Shown here piece by piece: positions 29,136 to 41,120 of a stretch of DNA of 64,000 nucleotides. The stretch's first letter is position 1, and every line of letters begins with the position of its first letter. This DNA is from Citreicoccus inhibens (GTDB lineage: Bacteria; Myxococcota; Myxococcia; Myxococcales; Myxococcaceae), in assembly GCF_019039035.1 (NCBI RefSeq), contig NZ_JAHNZT010000003.1, positions 186,001-250,000 of the forward strand, given 5' to 3'. The position numbers and the translations under genes were made by a program. The notes beneath the pieces are model-generated. The model was not told the origin of the DNA, did not search any database, and saw only the letters and a list, made by a program, of their open reading frames with translations.

Positions 29136-32100
29136 TCACCGACCATCCGTGCGCGCCCGCGGTGACTCCGAAGAGAAGAGCGTCTTGAGCACCCGCCCCG
29201 TCGGCGTCTTGAGCTTCCCCACCTCGCGAGGCGTCCCCGCGGCGACGATGCGCCCACCGGCCTCGCCGCCTTCCGGCCCCAGCTCGACGACGTGGTCCGC
29301 CGCGGCGATGACGGCGGGATGGTGCTCGATGACGACGAGCGTGTCGCCCCGGTCCACCAGCCGCCCCATGAACGTGATGAGCTTCTCCACGTCACCCACA
29401 TGCAGGCCCGTGGTGGGCTCATCCAACACATACAACGTGGGCTCGTGGCGCGCGCTCGCGGTCAGCTCGGCGGCCAGCTTCAGGCGCTGCGCCTCACCGC
29501 CGGAGAGCGTGTTGGAGCCCTGGCCCAGTTGCAGATAGCCCACGCCCAGGTCCGACAGACACGCCAGCGGCGCGGCCACCTTGGGGATCGACTGGAAGAC
29601 GTCCTTGGCCTCATCGGCGGACAGCCGCAGCACATCGCCCACGGAGAGGCCGTGGTAGCGCACTTCCAACGTGGCCGCGTCGAAGCGCGCGCCGCCGCAG
29701 GCCTCGCACGGCGTGACGACGTCCGGCAGGAAGGACATCTCGTGGGAGATGGCGCCCTGCCCTTCGCACACCGAGCAGCGTCCGCCGCTGGCGGTGTTGA
29801 AGGAGAAGCGCGCCGCGGTGAAGCCGCGAATCTTCGCCTCGGGCGTGGCGGCGAAGGCGCGACGCAGCTCGTCCCAGAGGCCCAGGAACGTGGCCGGCAC
29901 CGAGCGCGGCGTGCGGCCAATGGGTGACTGATCCACCGACAGCACCCGCTTCACCGCCTCGGCGCCGCGCAGGGCATCGAAGGCGCCGGGCTTCCCGGTG
30001 ACGAGCCCCAGCTTCTCGCGCAGCGCCGGATACAACACCTGTCGGATGAGCGTGCTCTTGCCCGAGCCCGACACGCCCGAGACGACGTTGAGCCGCCCCA
30101 CGGGCAGGCGCAGGTCCACGCGCTGAAGGTTGTTGGCGCGCGCGCCGGTGAGCTCCAGCCACTGCGTGGGCTCGCCACGCCCGGAGGGCGGACGCACGCG
30201 CGCGGCCCGGAGCGCGAGCGCCGTGGGCGAGCCGCCCTCCAGAACCTCCTCCGGAGCGCCTTCCGCCAGGATGTGGCCACCGCCTCGGCCGCCCGTGGGT
30301 CCCAGGTCGAGCAGATGGTCCGCGGCGCGGATGGTGTCCGCGTCGTGCTCCACCACCAGCACCGTGGAGCCGGTGTCCACCAGCGCGCGAAGATTGGCCA
30401 GCAAGAGGTGCGTGTCGCGCGGATGCAAGCCGATGGTGGGCTCGTCCAGCACGTACATGGCGCCGGTGAGGCCCGCGCCCAGTTGCGCGGAGAGCCGCAG
30501 CCGCTGCATCTCGCCACCCGAGAGCGTGGACGCGTTGCGATCCAACGACAGATAGCCCAGGCCCACGCGCTCCAGGAACTCCAAGCGGCGCAACAACTCC
30601 AGGCGCGACGGCTCGCCAATCAGGGCGCGGTCTCCCTTGAACTTCCACGCGCGCACCCGCGGGAGCATCGCGGCGACGGAGGCCTGCACCACCTCGTGGT
30701 AGCGCGCGCCCTCCAGCCGCACGCCGCGCGGCACCGGAGCCAGCCGGCTGCCTCCGCAATCACGGCACGGCGCCACCTCGCCCTCGGCCACGGCCGACGG
30801 GCCGCCCTGGACGCCGGTGCCTTCGCACGCCTCGCAGCGGCCCTGCTTGGTGTTGAAGGAGAACCAGCGCGGATCCAACTCCGGCACCGCCGTGCCGCAG
30901 CGCGGACAGGTGCGCTCGCTGGACAGGAGCGTCTCGCCCTGGGCGTTGCGCACCTTGAGGGCCCCCTGCCCCCACCCGAGCGTCTGCTCGAACCGCTCGC
31001 GCGGCAGCTTCGAGAGCCGGCCCTCGTACATGACGAGGTCGATGTCGTGCTCCCGCGTCTTGGCCAGGCGCGGCGGATCATCCGTGGAGGCAAGCTGCCC
31101 GTCCACGATGGCCGTGGTGATGCCCGCGCGCGCGGCGGCGGTGAAGACATCCAGGTACGTGCCCTTGCGCGAGCGCACGGCCGGAGCGAGCACCGTGCCG
31201 TCCCCCTTCATCGCCTGCACCTGGGAGAACAGTGCCTCGGGCGTGGTGGCGCCGATGGGCGTGTCATCCACCGGGCAGTGCGGCGCGCCCAGCTTGGCGA
31301 ACAACAGCCGCAGGTAGTGCGCCACCTCGGTGACGGTGGCCACGGTGCTCGTGCCGCCCGCGCGCGAGGTGCGCTGCTCCAACGCCACGGTGGGCGGGAT
31401 GCTGCTGATCCGCTCGACGTCCGGGCGTGGCAGCGTGGGGAGGAACTGGCGCGCGTAGGGCGTGAGCGTCTCCAGGAAGCGCCGCTGTCCCTCGGCGAAC
31501 ACCACGTCGAACGCGAGCGAGCTCTTGCCCGAGCCGCTCGGCCCGGTGACGACCGTCATCTTCCCCAGGGGAATCCGGCACGAGACATCCTGGAGGTTGT
31601 GCTCGCGCGCGTGCTCCACCTCGATGGCCGCGACCTGCGTGCCCGTGCGCCGCGCCTTCGTCGCGCGCGGAGCGGGACGTCCCTCGTCCCGAAGCGCGGC
31701 GGCGGTGGCGCTGCCCTTCACCTTCGCGACCCCGGCGGGGGTGCCCTCGGCCACGAGCCGTCCGCCATCGCGTCCACCGCTCGGCCCCAGGTCGATGATC
31801 CAATCCGAGCCGCGCATCACCGCGACGTCATGGTCCACCACGATGACGCTGCCGCCCTTGTCCACCAGCGCGTGCAGCGCGGCGAGCACGTGGCGCACAT
31901 CCTCCGCGTGCAGGCCGGCGCTCGGCTCATCGATGAGGAACAGCGTGCCCTGCGCGGGGCTGGCGAGCGCGCGCGCCAGCTTCAGCCGCTGCGCCTCGCC
32001 CCCCGACAAGGTGGACAGCGGCTGGCCCAGCGGCAGGTAGCCCAGGCCCAAGCGCTGCGCCGACCCCAGCGTGCGTTGCAGCGCCGGGTCCTCGCCAAAG

Positions 32101-34430
32101 TGGCTCAGCACCTCGTCCACCGTCATCTCCAGCACCTGCGCGACGCTGAAGCCCTGGTGGCGGACGGCGAGCACCTCTTCTTTGAAGCGCCGGCCCCGGC
32201 ACGTCGCGCACAAGAGGGCGACGTCCGCGAGGAACTGCATCTCCACCGTCTCGTAGCCCTCGCCCGCGCACGCCTCGCAGCGGCCCTTGTCCACATTGAA
32301 GGAGAAGTGCGCCGCCGTGAGCCCTCGCACCTCGGCCTCGGGCTCGGAGGCGAAGCGCTCGCGCAGGCGGTCCCACGCCTTGGTGTACGTGGCCGCGTTG
32401 CCACGCGACGTGCGCCCCAGCGGAGACTGGTCCACGAAGGTGATGGCCTTGACCCCCTCGGCGCCCTCCACCGAGTCCACCGCGCCCGCGGCCTCCACGT
32501 CCTTCTCGCCCAGCCGCCGCGCCAGGTGCCGATAGACAATCTCGTCCATCAGCGTGCTCTTGCCCGAGCCGCTCGGGCCGGTGATGGCGCACATCACCCC
32601 CAGCGGCACGCGCACGGACACGTCCTTCAGGTTGTGCTCGCGCGCGCCCTTCACCACCAGCTCGCCCTTGCGCTCGCGCGGCGTGCGCGGCGTGACGCTC
32701 GACTCCGCGAGCATCCGTCCGGTGGGCAGGTCCTTCTTCTTCGCCAACGCCTCGGGCGTGCCGTCGAAGCACAGACGCCCTCCCTGCCGACCCGCGCCGG
32801 GCCCCAGCTCCAACACCCGGTGCGCGGAGCGAATGACCCACGGGTCGTGCTCGAGGACGAGCGCGATGTTGCCTCGGTCCGCCAGCTCCGCGATGGCCTC
32901 GGTGAGCGGCGGCACGTCTCCGGGGTGCAGGCCCACGGTGGGTTCATCCAGCACGAAGAGCGCGCCCGTGAGCGACGTGCCCAGCGCCGCCGTCAGGGAC
33001 ACGCGCTGCGCTTCTCCCCCGGACAGCGTGCGCGCGGGCCGGTCCAACGTGAGGTAACCCAGCCCCACGCGCTGCAAGTAGCGCAGCCGGCTGGACAGCT
33101 CACGCCGCGCCAGCTCGCCTTGCCCCGTGGTGGTGCGCAGCGCGTCCAACCGGGTCAGCGCCTCGGTCAGCTCCAGCCCATGCCATGCCGGCAGGTCGAT
33201 GCCGCCCACGCGCCACGCACGCGCCTGGGCGTTGAGGCGCCCGCCATGACAGCTCTCGCAGAGCGTGTAGGCCCGGTAGCGCGCCAGCAGCACGCGCACG
33301 TGCATCTTGTACGTGCGGCTCTCCATCCAGCGGAACCACGCGCGCACGCCGGGATAGGCCTTGCCATCGCGGTAGTCACCCTCGCCCTCCAACACCAGCT
33401 CGCGCTGCGCGGCCGTGAGCTCGCCCCAGGGCTTGTCCCAGGGGATGTGGCGCGCGTGGCACCAGCGCTGGAGCATGCTCCGCTCCCACTCGCTGGAGGC
33501 GCCGGACCACGGGCGGATGGCCCCCTGAGACAGGCTCAGCGCGGGGTTGGGAATCACCTTGGCCCAGTCGATGCCGATGATGCGGCCAAAGCCCTTGCAC
33601 GGCGCGCACGCCCCCACCGGGCTCTGGTAGCTGAAGAGACCGGGGCGCGCGGGCTCGAACTCGCGAGCGCAGCGCGGACACACGAGCCCCCGGCGCAGCC
33701 GGCGCGGCGGAACCTCGGGAACGAGGAGCCACGCATCGCCCTCGGCGCGGGCCCACGCATCCTCCAGCGCCTGGGTGACGCGCGAGAGGTTGCCGCTCGA
33801 CAGCTTCACGCGGTCCACCACCACCTGCGCCACGCCCGCCGCGTCCGTCGCCTCGGCCGGGCGCAGCGACTCCAGTTCACGCACCTCGCCGCGCACCACG
33901 AGCCGGTGATAGCCGTCCTTGAGCAGGCGGGCGCGCGCGTCGAGGAACGCCGCGGTGTCGGGGATGCGCAGCGGGAAGGTGAGCACCGCCTGCGCCTCCG
34001 GGTGCGCGGTCAGCGCGGCCGTGGCGGCCACGCGGGCATCGGTGCGCACGGCCACCTCGCCGCAGTCCGGACACACCGGCATGGCCTCGCGCGTGAACAG
34101 GGCGGACAGGTACGGCTCCACATCCGCGAGCGTGGCCACCGTGGAGCGCGAGCTCTTCACCGGCGCGCGGCGATCCACCGCGACGCCCGCCGCCACCGGC
34201 TCCAGCGCGTCCATGGGCGGCCGCTCCAGGCGCTCCAGGAACTGCCGCGCATACGGGCTGAAGCTCTCCACGAAGCGCCGCTGCCCCTCCGCGTAGAGGG
34301 TGTCCAGGGCGAGGCTCGACTTGCCCGCCCCCGAGACGCCGGTGATGCAGACGAACTCGCCCTCCGCGAGGTCCACCGAGAGGCCCTGGAGGTTGTGGGT
34401 GCGAGCGCCGACGAGGTGGGTCTTGTGCAT
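29136..34430 (-). CDS. Double-length UvrA (covalently fused UvrA-like dimer)
   Basis: A 1764-aa protein, nearly twice the usual UvrA length (about 940). It holds four ABC ATPase modules. Walker A motifs lie near residues 31 (GVSGAGKSS), 617 (GPSGSGKST), 961 (GPSGSGKSS) and 1451 (GVSGSGKST). LSGGE signatures lie near 467, 807, 1301 and 1641. Paired CxxC zinc sites occur in both halves (CPRC/CAPC, CEAC/CATC, CPRC/CEAC, CSVC/CEAC). Each half has the UvrB-binding-like insertion; the second keeps LAPAVRSRKG better than the first. UvrA acts as a dimer in nucleotide excision repair, so this looks like two protomers in one chain. The 34430 start follows homology; no good ribosome site is visible. Long open antisense frames are shadows. 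Confidence 0.9.
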   Translation of the reverse strand: MHKTHLVGARTHNLQGLSVDLAEGEFVCITGVSGAGKSSLALDTLYAEGQRRFVESFSPYARQFLERLERPPMDALEPVAAGVAVDRRAPVKSSRSTVATLADVEPYLSALFTREAMPVCPDCGEVAVRTDARVAATAALTAHPEAQAVLTFPLRIPDTAAFLDARARLLKDGYHRLVVRGEVRELESLRPAEATDAAGVAQVVVDRVKLSSGNLSRVTQALEDAWARAEGDAWLLVPEVPPRRLRRGLVCPRCAREFEPARPGLFSYQSPVGACAPCKGFGRIIGIDWAKVIPNPALSLSQGAIRPWSGASSEWERSMLQRWCHARHIPWDKPWGELTAAQRELVLEGEGDYRDGKAYPGVRAWFRWMESRTYKMHVRVLLARYRAYTLCESCHGGRLNAQARAWRVGGIDLPAWHGLELTEALTRLDALRTTTGQGELARRELSSRLRYLQRVGLGYLTLDRPARTLSGGEAQRVSLTAALGTSLTGALFVLDEPTVGLHPGDVPPLTEAIAELADRGNIALVLEHDPWVIRSAHRVLELGPGAGRQGGRLCFDGTPEALAKKKDLPTGRMLAESSVTPRTPRERKGELVVKGAREHNLKDVSVRVPLGVMCAITGPSGSGKSTLMDEIVYRHLARRLGEKDVEAAGAVDSVEGAEGVKAITFVDQSPLGRTSRGNAATYTKAWDRLRERFASEPEAEVRGLTAAHFSFNVDKGRCEACAGEGYETVEMQFLADVALLCATCRGRRFKEEVLAVRHQGFSVAQVLEMTVDEVLSHFGEDPALQRTLGSAQRLGLGYLPLGQPLSTLSGGEAQRLKLARALASPAQGTLFLIDEPSAGLHAEDVRHVLAALHALVDKGGSVIVVDHDVAVMRGSDWIIDLGPSGGRDGGRLVAEGTPAGVAKVKGSATAAALRDEGRPAPRATKARRTGTQVAAIEVEHAREHNLQDVSCRIPLGKMTVVTGPSGSGKSSLAFDVVFAEGQRRFLETLTPYARQFLPTLPRPDVERISSIPPTVALEQRTSRAGGTSTVATVTEVAHYLRLLFAKLGAPHCPVDDTPIGATTPEALFSQVQAMKGDGTVLAPAVRSRKGTYLDVFTAAARAGITTAIVDGQLASTDDPPRLAKTREHDIDLVMYEGRLSKLPRERFEQTLGWGQGALKVRNAQGETLLSSERTCPRCGTAVPELDPRWFSFNTKQGRCEACEGTGVQGGPSAVAEGEVAPCRDCGGSRLAPVPRGVRLEGARYHEVVQASVAAMLPRVRAWKFKGDRALIGEPSRLELLRRLEFLERVGLGYLSLDRNASTLSGGEMQRLRLSAQLGAGLTGAMYVLDEPTIGLHPRDTHLLLANLRALVDTGSTVLVVEHDADTIRAADHLLDLGPTGGRGGGHILAEGAPEEVLEGGSPTALALRAARVRPPSGRGEPTQWLELTGARANNLQRVDLRLPVGRLNVVSGVSGSGKSTLIRQVLYPALREKLGLVTGKPGAFDALRGAEAVKRVLSVDQSPIGRTPRSVPATFLGLWDELRRAFAATPEAKIRGFTAARFSFNTASGGRCSVCEGQGAISHEMSFLPDVVTPCEACGGARFDAATLEVRYHGLSVGDVLRLSADEAKDVFQSIPKVAAPLACLSDLGVGYLQLGQGSNTLSGGEAQRLKLAAELTASARHEPTLYVLDEPTTGLHVGDVEKLITFMGRLVDRGDTLVVIEHHPAVIAAADHVVELGPEGGEAGGRIVAAGTPREVGKLKTPTGRVLKTLFSSESPRARTDGR

Positions 34431-34453
34431 TCGGGGCGGACGTTTAACGAGCC

Positions 34454-34480
34454 GACACTTCCGAGCCAAGGGCAAGTGTC
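34454..34480. promoter_or_regulatory. Inverted repeat upstream of the UvrA-like gene
   Basis: GACACTT and AAGTGTC form a perfect 7-bp inverted repeat with a 13-bp spacer, 24 bp before the UvrA-like start and in the region divergent to the protease gene. The spacing (arm centres 20 bp apart) suits a dimeric repressor on one DNA face. It does not look like the SOS boxes I know from myxobacteria. Confidence 0.35.
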
Positions 34481-35749: not shown

Positions 35750-35847
35750 CGCCAGGGCCCCAAATCCCCCTTAATTCAGGAATAAGCCGCAAATTCGCAA
35801 CAGCTTCACTGGAATCGCACGACTCCCCTGATTCTTTTGTCAATCCG

Positions 35848-35877
35848 GTGGAAACTCGCGGACCGCTGTCTCGATAA
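35848..35877 (+). promoter_or_regulatory. ECF-like promoter element of the metalloprotease gene
   Basis: GTGGAAACTC, 13 bases, then TCGATAA, about 35 bp before the ATG. ATCCGG precedes it. The same AACTC-N13-TCGATAA spacing occurs ahead of the 236-aa protein gene at 40410. The boxes resemble -35 (GGAAC-like) and -10 elements of ECF sigma promoters. Confidence 0.45.
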
Positions 35878-35911
35878 CTCTACATTCACCCTGCCGTCGC
35901 GAGCGTTCCCC

Positions 35912-38062
35912 ATGTCCATCCGCCGAACCGACAGCCCGAAGCAGCCGACCATCCGCCCCACCACCGCCGCTGACGCCAAGGCCACGAACACCGCGAAGCC
36001 CGCGGCGAAGCCGATGGTGACCAAGGACGGGTTCAGCGCCTCCACGCGCCCGTCGGAGCTGGCGCGCGCCGAGCAGACCCTGACGCCGCTGACCACGCAG
36101 CCCAAGGCGGGCCGGCTCGCCCTGGACAGCAAGGAGGCCCAGTCGGCCATCCAGACGTCGCTGGCCTACCTGACCCCGCCGCAGACCGCGCAGACGCTGC
36201 TGGCCAACCGCTCCGGCGCCACGCTGGCCCCCAAGAGCGTGGACCGCGACGAGCTGGGCATGACCCACGTCCGCCTGGACCGCATGCACGAGGGCGTGAA
36301 GGTCTTCGGCGAGCAGCTCATCTCGCACCTGGACAAGGACGGGAAGGTCTCCAGCGTCACCGGCAACCAGAACCCCATCCCCGCCGGTCTGGGCAGCCAG
36401 AAGCCCGCGCTGTCGCCGCAGCAGGCCATCGAGGTCGCTCGCAAGGACTTCGGCGCCAAGCCGGACAAGCAGCCGGCCGCTGAGCGCGTGATCTACCAGG
36501 ACAAGGCTGGCGAGTATCACTCCGCCTACCGCGTGGAGATCACCCAGGTCGAGGGTCAGAAGGACCCCCGCAAGATGAACTACCTGGTGGACGCGAACAC
36601 CGGGAAGGTCTTCGAGAGCTTCAACCAGATCGACGGCTTCTCGCGCTCGACCAAGGCGAAGGCGGCGGGCACCACGGATCCGTCCACCACGCCGGTGCAG
36701 GTGAGCGGTTCGGCGGCCCCCAAGGCGGCCATCCCGGACATGGGCAAGGTCTCCTCCAAGGTGACCCTGACGGACGATGTCTCCATCGACAAGCTCAAGC
36801 TGTCGCTGGACATCAACCACACCTACCGCGGCGACCTGACCATCACGCTGACCAGCCCCTCGGGCAAGTCCGCCACGGTGCTCAACCGCTCGGGTGGCAG
36901 CGCGGACAACGTCAAGCAGGACTTCGACCTGACCGCCTTCACGGGTGAGAAGACCAAGGGCGAGTGGACGCTGACGGTCGAGGACAAGGCCAAGCGCGAC
37001 ACGGGCACGCTCAACAAGTGGAGCCTGACGGCCACGGGCAAGAAGCCCTCCACCACCCCGACGGACCCGGGCACCCCGGGCGGCACGGGCAAGGCCGACG
37101 ACACCACGATGTACAGCGGCAAGGTCGACCTGCAGACCACGAAGAACGCGGACGGCACCTACAGCCTCGAGGACAAGACCCGCGGCAAGGGCATCTCGAC
37201 CTACGACGCCGGCAACAAGGAGCGCGCCTCCGGTCAGACCAAGTTCGTGGACGGCAACGACGTCTGGGGCGAGACCACGGACCCCACGCGCGCCAAGGCC
37301 GCTGTCGACGCCCACTACGGCGCCGAGATGACGTACGACTTCTACAAGAACATCCTCGGCCGCGACTCGATCGACGGCGCGGGTGAGCAGCTGAACTCGT
37401 ACGTCCACGTGAGCAACAACTACGTGAACGCGTACTGGGACGGCGAGAAGATGAGCTACGGCGACGGCGACGGCAAGGATGCCGGCCCGCTCACCACGCT
37501 CGACATCGCTGGCCACGAGATCACCCACGGCCTGACGGAGCGCACCGCCGGCCTGGTGTACAGCGGCGAGTCCGGAGGCCTGAACGAGGCCATGAGCGAC
37601 ATCATGGGCACGGGCGTGGAGTGGTACGCCGCGCAGAAGAACCCGGGCGTGAAGTCCAACTGGACGGTGGGCGAGGCTGCCTGGACGCCGAACAACGGCG
37701 ACCCGAACGACGGCCTGCGCTACATGAACGACCCGACCAAGGACGGGTACTCGATCGACAACTACAAGAACTACCCGAAGCAGACGGAGGTGCACGGCTC
37801 CAGCGGTATCGCCAACAACGCCTTCTACCTGCTCGTCGAGGGCGGCAAGAACCGCACGTCCGGCCTGGAAGTGAAGGACGGCATCGGCATGGAGAAGGGC
37901 CTCAAGGTCTTCGGCCGCGCGCTGACCACCTACATGACCCCGAAGACCACCTTCGCCCAGGCCCGCGAGGCCACGGTGAAGGCGGCCACGGACCTGTACG
38001 GCGCGAACTCCACCGAGGTCCAGAAGGTGAAGGACGCCTGGACCGCGGTCGGCGTGAACTAG
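35912..38062 (+). CDS. M4 (thermolysin-family) metalloprotease with internal P-domain
   Basis: A 716-aa zinc protease. Order: Ala/Thr/Pro-rich leader (1-70), FTP/PepSY-type propeptide (about 105-240), proprotein-convertase P-domain (about 262-378; VSIDKLKLSLDINHTYRGDLTITLTSPSG), linker, M4 catalytic domain (about 398-716). Zinc ligands are HEITH (535-539) and Glu559 in GGLNEAMSD. The proton-donating His is in EVHGSSGIAN (about 628). In most M4 proteases a P-domain, if present, follows the catalytic domain; here it precedes it. No Sec signal is seen at either the 35912 ATG or an upstream in-frame start at 35837. The leader MSIRRTDSP resembles that of the protein at 40410. Expected to be secreted and self-processed, as family members are. 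Confidence 0.9.
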   Translation: MSIRRTDSPKQPTIRPTTAADAKATNTAKPAAKPMVTKDGFSASTRPSELARAEQTLTPLTTQPKAGRLALDSKEAQSAIQTSLAYLTPPQTAQTLLANRSGATLAPKSVDRDELGMTHVRLDRMHEGVKVFGEQLISHLDKDGKVSSVTGNQNPIPAGLGSQKPALSPQQAIEVARKDFGAKPDKQPAAERVIYQDKAGEYHSAYRVEITQVEGQKDPRKMNYLVDANTGKVFESFNQIDGFSRSTKAKAAGTTDPSTTPVQVSGSAAPKAAIPDMGKVSSKVTLTDDVSIDKLKLSLDINHTYRGDLTITLTSPSGKSATVLNRSGGSADNVKQDFDLTAFTGEKTKGEWTLTVEDKAKRDTGTLNKWSLTATGKKPSTTPTDPGTPGGTGKADDTTMYSGKVDLQTTKNADGTYSLEDKTRGKGISTYDAGNKERASGQTKFVDGNDVWGETTDPTRAKAAVDAHYGAEMTYDFYKNILGRDSIDGAGEQLNSYVHVSNNYVNAYWDGEKMSYGDGDGKDAGPLTTLDIAGHEITHGLTERTAGLVYSGESGGLNEAMSDIMGTGVEWYAAQKNPGVKSNWTVGEAAWTPNNGDPNDGLRYMNDPTKDGYSIDNYKNYPKQTEVHGSSGIANNAFYLLVEGGKNRTSGLEVKDGIGMEKGLKVFGRALTTYMTPKTTFAQAREATVKAATDLYGANSTEVQKVKDAWTAVGVN

Positions 38063-38081
38063 TCTTCGAGTCGTAGTTCCC

Positions 38082-38126
38082 CGAGGCGGGCCCGGCCAAT
38101 CAGCCGGTGCCCGCCTCGTCATTTTT
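38082..38126 (+). terminator. Intrinsic terminator after the metalloprotease
   Basis: A perfect 10-bp stem (CGAGGCGGGC with GCCCGCCTCG) encloses a second stem (CCGGC with GCCGG) and loop CAATCA, and is followed by TCATTTTT. It starts 20 bases after the stop codon and is the clearest Rho-independent terminator in the window. Confidence 0.88.
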
Positions 38127-38133
38127 CAGCGAC

Positions 38134-39444
38134 TCACGCGAACAAGCGCCGCAGCACGGCCACCATCGCGTGCACGTCCGAAGCCGCCGCCATCTCGCGG
38201 ATGGAGTGCATGGACAGCATGGGGTTGCCCACGTCCACCGTGCGGATGCCCAGCTGCCCCGCGGTGATGGGCCCGATGGTGCTGCCGCAGCCCAGGTCCG
38301 TGCGCGTGACGAAGTGCTGGGGCTTCACGCCCGCCTCGCGGCACAGCGCCGCGAAGTGCGCCCACGACTCGCCGTCCGTCGCGTAGGACTGGTTCACGTT
38401 GGACTTGATGACCGGCCCGCCCCCCAAGAGCGGATGGTGCTTGGGCTCGTGCAGCGAGGCGTAGTTGGGGTGCACCGCGTGCGCCATGTCCGCGCTCACC
38501 AGGAACGAGTGACGGAGGGCCCGGTGCAGCGCGTCCGCCTTCCCATCCGAGTGCGAGAGCACGATGCGCTCCAGCACATCCTTCAGGAACGGAGACGCCG
38601 CGCCCTGCGCGCTCCGGCTGCCGCACTCCTCGTGGTCATACAGGACCACGCCGCACGTGGCCTCACGCGGGCCCGAGTCCGCCAGGAGCGCGGACAGGCT
38701 CGCGTGGCAGCTCGCCAGGTTGTCCAGGCGCGCCGCATGGAGGAACTCACCGTGCGCGCCCGAGCGCGTGGAGGGCTGCACGTCGTACAGGCACAGGTCA
38801 TAGCCGAGCACGTCGTCGCCGCTCGCCTTCACCCCGGCCCGCGCCAGCTCCTCGGTGAGCAGGCCGCGCAGCTCCACTTCGCCCGCGCGCTCCAGGCCCA
38901 GCACCGGCACCATGTGATCCTGCGCGTTGAGCTTGAGCCCGTCCGTGTTGACGCCCCGGTTCAGGTGGATGGCCAGGTTGGGCACGCGCAAGAGCGGGCG
39001 GCGGAAGTCCACCAGGTGGTGCCGCGGACGTCCGTTCTCCAGGACGACCACGCGCCCGGCCAGCGACAGGTCGCGGTCCGTCCACGTGTGCAACAGCACG
39101 CCGCCGTAGATCTCCACGCCGAGCTGCTGATAGCCGTGGCGCGACACCTGCGCGTTCGGCTTCAGCCGCAGGTTGGGTGAGTCCGTGTGCGCGCCCACCA
39201 GCCGGAAGCCGACCTGATCCACCGGACGCGAGCCCACGTGGAAGGCGGCGATGCTGGTGTCTCCACGCACCACGAAGAAGCGGTCGCCGGCCTTGAGCGA
39301 CCAGCTCTCTCGCTCGTCCAGCGGGCGGTAGCCGGCCGCGGTGAGGCGGCGCGCCGTCTCGCGCACGGCGTGGTACGGCGTGGGGGAGGCGTCAATGTAC
39401 TGCAGCAGGTCGGTGGCCAGGGCGTCGGTATCGGTGGGGCTCAT
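38134..39444 (-). CDS. apeB: M18 family aminopeptidase
   Basis: A 436-aa zinc aminopeptidase of the M18 family, which removes acidic or other N-terminal residues in the cytoplasm and forms large dodecamers. Metal-binding and catalytic motifs include VGAHTDSPNLRLKP, GEFLHAARLDNLASCHASL, VLYDHEECGSRSAQGA and SADMAHAVHPNY, with DLGCGSTIGPITAGQLGI towards the C-terminus. Length agrees with the bacterial ApeB group (about 430). No signal peptide. It converges on the metalloprotease terminator. A 12-bp gap separates its start side from the downstream-facing stop of the next reverse gene. Confidence 0.94.
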   Translation of the reverse strand: MSPTDTDALATDLLQYIDASPTPYHAVRETARRLTAAGYRPLDERESWSLKAGDRFFVVRGDTSIAAFHVGSRPVDQVGFRLVGAHTDSPNLRLKPNAQVSRHGYQQLGVEIYGGVLLHTWTDRDLSLAGRVVVLENGRPRHHLVDFRRPLLRVPNLAIHLNRGVNTDGLKLNAQDHMVPVLGLERAGEVELRGLLTEELARAGVKASGDDVLGYDLCLYDVQPSTRSGAHGEFLHAARLDNLASCHASLSALLADSGPREATCGVVLYDHEECGSRSAQGAASPFLKDVLERIVLSHSDGKADALHRALRHSFLVSADMAHAVHPNYASLHEPKHHPLLGGGPVIKSNVNQSYATDGESWAHFAALCREAGVKPQHFVTRTDLGCGSTIGPITAGQLGIRTVDVGNPMLSMHSIREMAAASDVHAMVAVLRRLFA

Positions 39445-39456
39445 GGGCGTCCCACG

Positions 39457-40290
39457 CTAACCCCGTCCGGCCCCTGCGCCACTCCCAACCGACGCCCCCC
39501 CGGCAGGCGTCCCGGCCCCTGCTGGCTGGATCACCTTGGAGGCACGCGCACCGGGCGCCGCGTCCAGGAAGGTGCCCAGCAGCACCCAGCGCCGCGCGTC
39601 CGCCTCCTTCCCCCGGCGCGCCAACAGCGGCGTGGTGTAGTGCCAGAAGGGCAGCCGGTACACCGTGATGCCGCCCACGGTGCTCACCCGCGTCATCTCG
39701 GAGAAGTGCCCGTCCTGGGCGTAGACGAGGTACTGATGATCCACGCCGGGCAGCGTCAGGCTGATGTGCATGTCCACATAGCCGTCGCGGGCCTCGGGCT
39801 CCTCGGGGTGATGATCGTTGTGCGGCCCGCTGTAATCCCCAGGGCTGTAGCACAGCACCTGGATGCCCCAGGGGCGGCTCAGCGCCCGCCCGCTCACCAC
39901 CGCCGCGAAGGCCGCGTAGGTGTCCGAGCGCATCATCGCCGTGAGCCCCACCGCCTCCGCCGCGCGCCACGAGCGCGAGCGGCGGTTCTCCATCAGCGCC
40001 GTGCGCACCCGCACCGTCTTGGGCAGCCGCTCCTCGTAGTTCTCCACCATCCCCAGGATGGAGTCCTCGGGGATGGGGTCCTCCATCAGCACCAACGTGT
40101 CGCGCATCGCCGTGTCCAACGCATCGCGGCAACGGGTGGCCTTCCCCGCGTCGAGGACACCTTGGAGTGACACGAAGGGCCGAGCCGGGTCGAGCAGTAC
40201 ACCCCGGACATCGCGGTCCTTCCCCTCCAGGATGCGGCGGCCCTTGGGGGTGAGGAGATCAGCGAACTCGGAGGGAAAGGGCTGGGGCAT
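39457..40290 (-). CDS. Putative 2OG-Fe(II) oxygenase-fold protein
   Basis: A 277-aa protein with the beta-helix metal-site pattern. CYSPGDYSGPHNDHHPE gives an HxD pair (H157, D159), LPFWHYTTPL gives a distal His (H217) and DARRWVLLGTF gives an Arg (about 234) for an acid cosubstrate. YVDMHISLTLPG and GGITVYRLP match core strands. This resembles prolyl-hydroxylase-like proteins, although I cannot name a subfamily. The last 25 residues are Ala/Gly/Pro-rich and probably disordered. ATG at 40290 is used. It is 12 bp upstream of apeB on the same strand, so co-transcription is likely. It is divergent from the 236-aa gene at 40410. Confidence 0.5.
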   Translation of the reverse strand: MPQPFPSEFADLLTPKGRRILEGKDRDVRGVLLDPARPFVSLQGVLDAGKATRCRDALDTAMRDTLVLMEDPIPEDSILGMVENYEERLPKTVRVRTALMENRRSRSWRAAEAVGLTAMMRSDTYAAFAAVVSGRALSRPWGIQVLCYSPGDYSGPHNDHHPEEPEARDGYVDMHISLTLPGVDHQYLVYAQDGHFSEMTRVSTVGGITVYRLPFWHYTTPLLARRGKEADARRWVLLGTFLDAAPGARASKVIQPAGAGTPAGGASVGSGAGAGRG

Positions 40291-40341
40291 GCGCGCACCA
40301 TACCCAGCACGGAGTGGAACGCACGCGCCGCCTGATATCCG

Positions 40342-40370
40342 GCGCAACTCCATGCATTCCCCGTCGATAA
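40342..40370 (+). promoter_or_regulatory. ECF-like promoter element of the 236-aa protein gene
   Basis: GCGCAACTC, 13 bases, then TCGATAA, 40-odd bp before the ATG, preceded by ATCCGG exactly as upstream of the metalloprotease at 35912. Both elements are followed by a TCT...ATTC...CCCTG stretch. The shared layout suggests one sigma factor controls both genes. Confidence 0.45.
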
Positions 40371-40409
40371 TGTCTTATTCCGGAATCCCTGTACGGAGAG
40401 CCGCCCCGC

Positions 40410-41120
40410 ATGACCTCCATTCGCCCCCGCCCCAACCTCATCCCGCCGTCCCCCGCGCGCACCGCCGCGCCTCAGTCCTCCGCGCAGACGGCAGCGGCCG
40501 CCCAGACGAGCGCTGCCTCGCGCGTGAAGGAGAGCAGCTTCGAGTCCGCCACGCCCGCGCGCGCGGCGGCCGCACCTCAGCCCACGGCGGGCGCGTGGCG
40601 CGGTGGGCCGGACACCGAGGTGGGCAAGGCCATCCAGCAGATGCTGACGCGGATGGAGGGCACCAACATCACCATCAAGGGTGACACGCCGACGAGCCTC
40701 TTCAGCCGCGCCATCCTCGACAACAAGCACATCACCAACGAGCAGTTGATCGCGATGACGCAGGTGAAGCTGGAGCAGCTCGCCACGTCTCCCGAGGACC
40801 GCGCCAAGGTGCTGGAGAAGGTCCCGAACGCGCGCGACCTGCCCGTGCACAAGTTCACCGTGGCCATGCTGTCCGCCGCCACGGGCGTGGACCCCAAGGA
40901 GCTCTCCGAGGCCTGTCCCGACCTGGGCCTGACGGGCGCGCCCAACACGCCCATCCTGTACGCCGCGAAGACCGAGCGCATGCAGCGCTCCACCGCGCTG
41001 CACGACTTCACCGATTACCTGCGCGGCGCCGGCGTCAAGGGCGTCAACAAGGCCGTCTGGGGCGTGGAGAACCGCGTCCTGTCCGCGCTGGTCTCGGCGC
41101 TCGGCGGCGGTCGCTACTAG
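40410..41120 (+). CDS. Unknown protein with signal-less SIR-type leader
   Basis: A 236-aa protein I do not recognise. Residues 1-65 are Ala/Pro/Ser/Thr-rich and presumably disordered, starting MTSIRPRPNLIPPSP. The rest is mostly helical (VGKAIQQMLTRMEG, LFSRAILDNKHITNEQLIAMTQVKLEQLA, HDFTDYLRGAGVKGVNKAVWGVENRVLSALVSAL). No Sec signal, lipobox, transmembrane helix or zinc motif is seen; the single Cys is in SEACPDL. The leader resembles that of the M4 protease at 35912, and the upstream element is shared. Possibly a regulator or cargo exported by a route other than Sec. A hairpin terminator follows. Confidence 0.7.
   Translation: MTSIRPRPNLIPPSPARTAAPQSSAQTAAAAQTSAASRVKESSFESATPARAAAAPQPTAGAWRGGPDTEVGKAIQQMLTRMEGTNITIKGDTPTSLFSRAILDNKHITNEQLIAMTQVKLEQLATSPEDRAKVLEKVPNARDLPVHKFTVAMLSAATGVDPKELSEACPDLGLTGAPNTPILYAAKTERMQRSTALHDFTDYLRGAGVKGVNKAVWGVENRVLSALVSALGGGRY

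Follow-up and report, generated by a model that had tools for sequence, protein, structure and literature searches.

A promoter box and an N-terminal leader point to a scattered regulon of predicted type III substrates in Citreicoccus inhibens

In a 64,000-nucleotide stretch of the Citreicoccus inhibens genome (G000, 9.05 Mb; C57:186001-250000, hereafter the window), we found that the genes for an M4 metalloprotease and for a protein of 236 amino acids (aa) carry the same promoter box and begin with similar polar leaders. Judged from sequence, both genes are probably members of a dispersed regulon that encodes substrates of T3SS*, a myxobacterial type III secretion system (T3SS); our confidence in each separate step, that is the sigma factor, the leader and the delivery, is lower than in the regulon as a whole. 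In Myxococcus xanthus, T3SS* (MXAN_2434-2464) is required for prey lysis (PMC12075869, PMC10433427), Kil and T3SS* act together, and T3SS(2) (MXAN_5643-5654) plays no part in killing. The effectors of T3SS* are unknown according to a 2023 review, and we found none named in later literature, in a search that most subscription journals fell outside.

The promoter box and the leaders of the two window genes

The box of the M4 gene lies on the plus strand at 35851..35878, 33 bp 5' of the ATG, and consists of a -35-like GAAACTC (AAC at 35853) and a -10-like CGATAAC (35872-35878). The box of the 236-aa gene, also on the plus strand, lies at 40344..40371, 38 bp 5' of the ATG, with GCAACTC (AAC at 40346) and CGATAAT (40365-40371). 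A preliminary description of the window had noted AACTC-N13-TCGATAA at the same spacing before both genes, and we find it there, with AACTC at 35853 and 40346 and TCGATAA at 35871 and 40364. When we searched all 9.05 Mb, the exact pattern occurred at two sites, only before these two genes, and at none in the reversed sequence, which served as the control for pattern counts. Two further elements from the same description fell away as incidental matches: ATCCGG is placed differently before the two genes (4 and 3 nt from AACTC), has 25 copies across the window and shows no conservation among orthologues, and TCT..ATTC..CCCTG aligns between the two genes only with gaps and is not kept in orthologues. 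We also tried TCGATAA near an ATG as the sole marker; it gave 20 matches against 10 in the control, a small enrichment, and the other genes lacked the leader, so the marker needs both halves of the promoter and the spacing between them. An HrpL-type promoter, of the extracytoplasmic function (ECF) class, was rejected for the box, since GGAACC-N16-CCACNNA is not matched by GCAACYY...CGATAAY.

Orthologues of the M4 gene are present in 60 of 92 family genomes and those of the 236-aa gene in 60 of 96, and we compared the upstream regions of 30 orthologues for each. In all 30 M4 orthologues, GAAAC or GCAAC is followed by CGATAAC, CGAGAAT, CGACAAT or a close variant 29-38 bp 5' of the start; the start of the orthologue at L077 was taken 32 codons too early, and hence its box is unscored. 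In the 236-aa set, GCAAC-N16/17-CGATAAY or a close variant stands upstream of 30/30 genes.

As the preliminary description had it, both proteins start with M(T)SIR, continue with a polar stretch rich in P, A, T and S, and have no hydrophobic N-terminus. The M4 protease (thermolysin-type; 35912..38062, plus strand; 716 aa) lacks a Sec signal and is a predicted T3SS* effector. Its leader (35912..36046, plus strand), MSIRRTD... then a polar stretch ending ...VTKDGFSAS, is a predicted type III signal on the strength of conservation in the 30 orthologues and N-terminal statistics: M[ST][IV]RR is kept in 30/30 and ..DGF is also conserved, while the remaining leader varies freely in length. In every orthologue the protein starts at the M[ST][IV]RR codon, which places the M4 start at the ATG at 35912; a longer, TTG-started frame was rejected, as it would also overrun the promoter box. 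By Pfam the protein has FTP, PepSY, P-domain and M4 catalytic domains; with its FTP/PepSY propeptide it has the HExxH and the downstream Glu and His of the family (HEITH at 535, Glu559 and His628). The proprotein-convertase P-domain (window 36788-37030, residues 293-373) separates the propeptide from the catalytic domain, and a different box gene (L285) has the same domain fused to Endonuclease I.

The 236-aa protein (40410..41120, plus strand), likewise without a Sec signal, is a predicted T3SS* substrate with a helical core from residue 61. Its leader, residues 1-60 (40410..40589, plus strand), runs from MTSIRPRP... through a polar stretch to ...KESSFESA and is predicted to be a type III signal from the conservation of its N-terminal motif and its disorder in the AlphaFold model, where these residues have a predicted local distance difference test score (pLDDT) of about 35. 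M-x-x-I-x-x-R-P is kept at the N-termini of the orthologues, and leader length is otherwise variable. The protein belongs to no Pfam or NCBIfam family, its core has no significant fold match in the PDB, and PADLOC gave no match for it. A Myxococcaceae-type gene for this protein, at 67% identity, also occurs in a record labelled Comamonas sp. KCTC 72670 (L261, BNCN01000014.1), and this record is probably mislabelled or contaminated.

Box and leader across the genome

To score the box, we built a weight matrix from 38 training sites, all from other genomes, and applied it to the 130 nt 5' of 1,153 predicted C. inhibens genes in about 1.66 Mb of the 9.05 Mb, including 1.2 Mb chosen blind to the motif. 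The M4 box scores 17.7 and the 236-aa box 23.3. With leaders defined without promoter information and a box threshold of matrix score >=7, the box precedes 8/13 leader proteins as compared to 15/1,140 others (p=8e-12); in the blind 1.2 Mb alone, it precedes 5/9 leader proteins and 4/799 others (p=6e-9). An overlap of the box and leader sets was the check that the preliminary description had proposed for its reading of a targeting leader and a single regulon, and this strong overlap of sequence features supports that reading. On both strands of the blind 1.2 Mb there are seven strong sites, as compared to one in the reversed sequence; leader genes follow directly on six of the seven, at 32-39 bp in five cases. 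The seventh, on the minus strand of L185 (C35:298501-318500), scores 17.2 and has no obvious leader protein downstream; it may be a chance site or reflect a miscalled start. The top 15 of the 1,153 genes by matrix all encode signal-less proteins, mostly leader proteins by inspection.

With the relaxed patterns AACY-N15-CGATAAY and AACYT-N15-CGATAAY, ten sites were found in the C. inhibens genome and none in the control, and all ten stand 5' of an open frame, mostly for signal-less proteins with a polar leader. Over 92 Myxococcaceae genomes, AACY-N15-CGATAAY has 812 sites against 61 in the reversed control. In the collection of box-downstream proteins described below, polar N-termini are strongly enriched (20/31 as compared to 37/1066 other proteins), as is an M[ST]x(0-2)[IV] start (15/31 as compared to 61/1066), and a later F motif is common (25/31 as compared to 405/1066). 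Leader composition is S/T/P-rich and Leu-poor, and the leaders are disordered and free of a Sec signal, which are the sequence criteria for T3SS substrates. Some box genes have products of another kind: those of L156, L162, L167 (G002), L279 and L293 start MGF(L/I)KGIGKA.. or MGF.DI.. and have no SIR leader, and possibly they form a different substrate class.

The box-downstream proteins that we collected, from seven genomes and additional matches, number 86 and fall into 33 families; at least two of these families, a kinase and an ATP-binding cassette (ABC) protein, resemble chance sites. Box genes of C. inhibens itself encode a second M4 protease (603 aa), an Amidase_2 + PG_binding_1 protein, a LysM + SLT transglycosylase and Endonuclease I, and, behind a weaker box, a CHAP + PG_binding_1 protein; two more have weak matches to a phospholipase A2 and to an alpha/beta hydrolase. 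Relatives add further Amidase_2 proteins and a P-domain + Endonuclease I protein. We found no recognisable Sec signal in these enzymes, either in C. inhibens or in its relatives, and from their domains the set is what would be expected for the dismantling of bacterial prey. Inside the T3SS cluster of G002, a genome of genus g3 (to which Archangium belongs), a box gene encodes a DUF1521 protein, again with no recognisable Sec signal; the same auto-cleaving domain occurs in the NopE proteins that Bradyrhizobium secretes by a type III route (PMC6506597).

The T3SS* cluster, its sigma factor and its needle-like proteins

A type III cluster lies 18-40 kb to the left of the window (C57:146452-168299). 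SctV, SctU, SctQ, SctN, SctJ and, weakly, SctI were recognised by Pfam and NCBIfam, and SctR, S, T and L were assigned by position and size. In the Myxococcus genome G062, the positions of the close SctV (2.86 Mb) and of a distant paralogue (6.83 Mb) are roughly those that the MXAN gene numbers predict, and we infer from this that the boxed cluster is T3SS*. M. xanthus AM003 (G078) has the sigma gene described below, the cluster, the M4 gene, the 236-aa gene and the boxes. Five boxes lie inside the C. inhibens cluster (C57:149.7-168.0 kb): three tandem 73-aa genes have one each, and the other two precede a 156-aa gene and an operon headed by a 187-aa gene; cluster boxes are also present in G002 and G014.

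Within the operon headed by the 187-aa gene, and about 55 kb from the M4 gene, a minus-strand gene at C57:165545-166378 encodes a sigma factor of the FliA/WhiG type. The protein is the best match in the genome to TIGR02479 (FliA_WhiG; E 9.4e-34), and Pfam recognises sigma regions 2 and 4 in it. The FliA -10 element is GCCGATAA, with CGATAA as the FliA-type -10 core, and the CGATAAY of the box matches it. As the sigma gene lies inside a box-headed operon, the sigma factor probably promotes its own expression. We detected it in 84/92 genomes; box density is 1.0 per Mb in genomes with the sigma factor and 0.26 per Mb in the eight without it (p=3e-4), and none of these eight has the M4 or 236-aa gene (p=1e-4).

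Directly before the sigma gene, and ending about 10 bp from it, lies a conserved 131-aa gene (C57:166388-166783; L096:17888-18283), whose product has a low-complexity N-terminus and an (S/T)FGxxV-type motif like those of the predicted substrates. Pfam and NCBIfam gave no FlgM match for this protein, which is a candidate secreted anti-sigma factor.

According to the published view, the myxobacterial T3SS* has no needle. The 73-aa proteins are homologous to the C-terminus of the 187-aa protein, which on its own matches needle models weakly (E 0.03-0.04). A joint profile of the 73-aa and 187-aa proteins matches PDB chain 7y6c_F (6.7e-6), which Pfam PF09392 identifies as a needle protein (2.3e-17); single 73-aa proteins fall short of PF09392. 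AlphaFold models the 73-aa protein with modest confidence as a two-helix hairpin (helices 4-29 and 32-72; mean pLDDT 70, predicted template modelling score 0.34), and a Foldseek search of the PDB with this model found nothing useful, which is no surprise for a short helical hairpin modelled at low confidence. The 73-aa proteins are likely candidates for a divergent, multi-copy SctF. The near-identical tandem genes number three in C. inhibens (C57:149896-151028, L096) and six in G002 (L168:7999-12726), and each copy examined has a box.

Elsewhere in the window, a 1,779-aa frame at 29136-34475 resembles a tandem UvrA-type ABC ATPase, as judged by eye.

Proposed mechanism, rival explanations and known systems

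We propose that the cluster sigma factor would recognise GCAACYY-N13/14-CGATAAY and transcribe its own operon, the tandem needle-like genes and the unlinked effector genes. The M-x(0-3)-I-R leader and the F motif that follows it (DGF/SSF/DAF) would together form an N-terminal type III export signal, which would account for the absence of a Sec peptide from an M4 protease of the zymogen type. Upon contact with prey, the substrates would be exported, and M4 proteases, amidases, the transglycosylase, the nuclease and probable lipases would dismantle the prey, with the M4 propeptide folding the protease only after export.

Several points weigh against this account. The cluster sigma factor scores 117.1 bits against a FliA_WhiG cut-off of 189.6, and hence we call it FliA-like and not FliA; the -35 half of the box, GCAACYY, differs from that of FliA; and the joint distribution of sigma factor, boxes and genes is confounded by phylogeny. 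The leader regular expression fails on about half of the box genes, some of which start MGF.. or MSW.., and the phospholipase A2 (PLA2-like) and alpha/beta hydrolase assignments are weak (0.0009 and 0.007). T3SS* also has no secretin or known translocon, and for want of a secretin the cargo may be delivered together with the Kil/Tad pilus.

It is unlikely that the regulon is real and linked to T3SS* and yet is read by a different sigma factor, whether of the ECF or another group, or by the housekeeping factor with an activator at the AAC half. The only strong FliA-type candidate lies in a box-headed operon, sigma factor and boxes co-occur, and the CGATAA core of the box is of the FliA type; against these stand an AAC -35 element about 16 nt before the -10, which resembles ECF promoters, the score of the cluster sigma factor below its cut-off, and two genomes, both draft assemblies, that carry five boxes each with no sigma factor detected.

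Slightly less likely still is a predation regulon, marked by the box, whose leader proteins leave the cell by other means (the Kil/Tad complex, a type VI secretion system or lysis), the leader being a general disordered linker. Leaders of low complexity that are only loosely conserved between families would suit such a linker, and the lack of a secretin and translocon in T3SS*, like its cooperation with Kil, would suit another route. However, the needle-like products of the T3SS* cluster share the box and the N-terminal style, DUF1521, a type III effector domain, is among the in-cluster box genes, and the leaders have the S/T/P-rich, L-poor composition of type III signals. Local duplication of an upstream region without regulatory meaning, which would fit two genes that share an orientation and are separated by 4.5 kb, in Corallococcus too, is highly improbable and is refuted by the conserved unlinked cases: in Myxococcus, hundreds of kb separate the two genes and each retains its box and leader, dozens of unlinked genes are boxed, and the sequence around the box is not alike.

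Taken together, box and leader give a list of candidate T3SS* substrates, a candidate regulator and candidate needles, conserved in M. xanthus, and if the T3SS*-substrate regulon holds, prey-digesting enzymes, including a zymogen protease without a Sec peptide, would be exported by a type III route. More tentatively, T3SS* may be a complete, contact-triggered antibacterial type III system with a divergent needle, its own sigma-28-like factor and possibly a secreted anti-sigma factor (the 131-aa protein), in which completion of the machine or contact with prey would release the sigma factor and switch on dozens of unlinked prey-digesting effectors that can be found from box and leader. Were this so, the list would be the first catalogue of type III effectors acting on bacterial prey.

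As in M. xanthus T3SS*, the cluster near the window has SctRSTUV, N, L, Q, J and I, and M. xanthus AM003 has the orthologous cluster; published accounts of that system (PMC12075869, PMC10433427) name no effectors, dedicated sigma factor or needle, all of which are proposed here. The M4 protease has the FTP-PepSY propeptide and HExxH...E catalytic domain of the thermolysin family and differs from it in the missing Sec signal, the leader resembling a type III signal, and the position of its P-domain. Like flagellar FliA (sigma-28) and FlgM, the system would couple a FliA-type sigma factor, encoded with a type III machine, to a CGATAA -10 element, and late secreted parts (needle-like proteins and substrates) fall within the putative regulon as in FliA/FlgM late-gene control. 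In contrast to that control, the -35 element here is GCAACYY and not TAAA, there is no flagellum, and no FlgM homologue was detected. The HrpL regulons of plant-pathogen T3SSs also combine an alternative sigma factor with T3SS genes, scattered effectors and a shared box from which effectors can be found; HrpL is an ECF sigma factor that reads GGAACC-N16-CCACNNA, whereas here the -10 element is CGATAAY and the candidate sigma factor is FliA-like.
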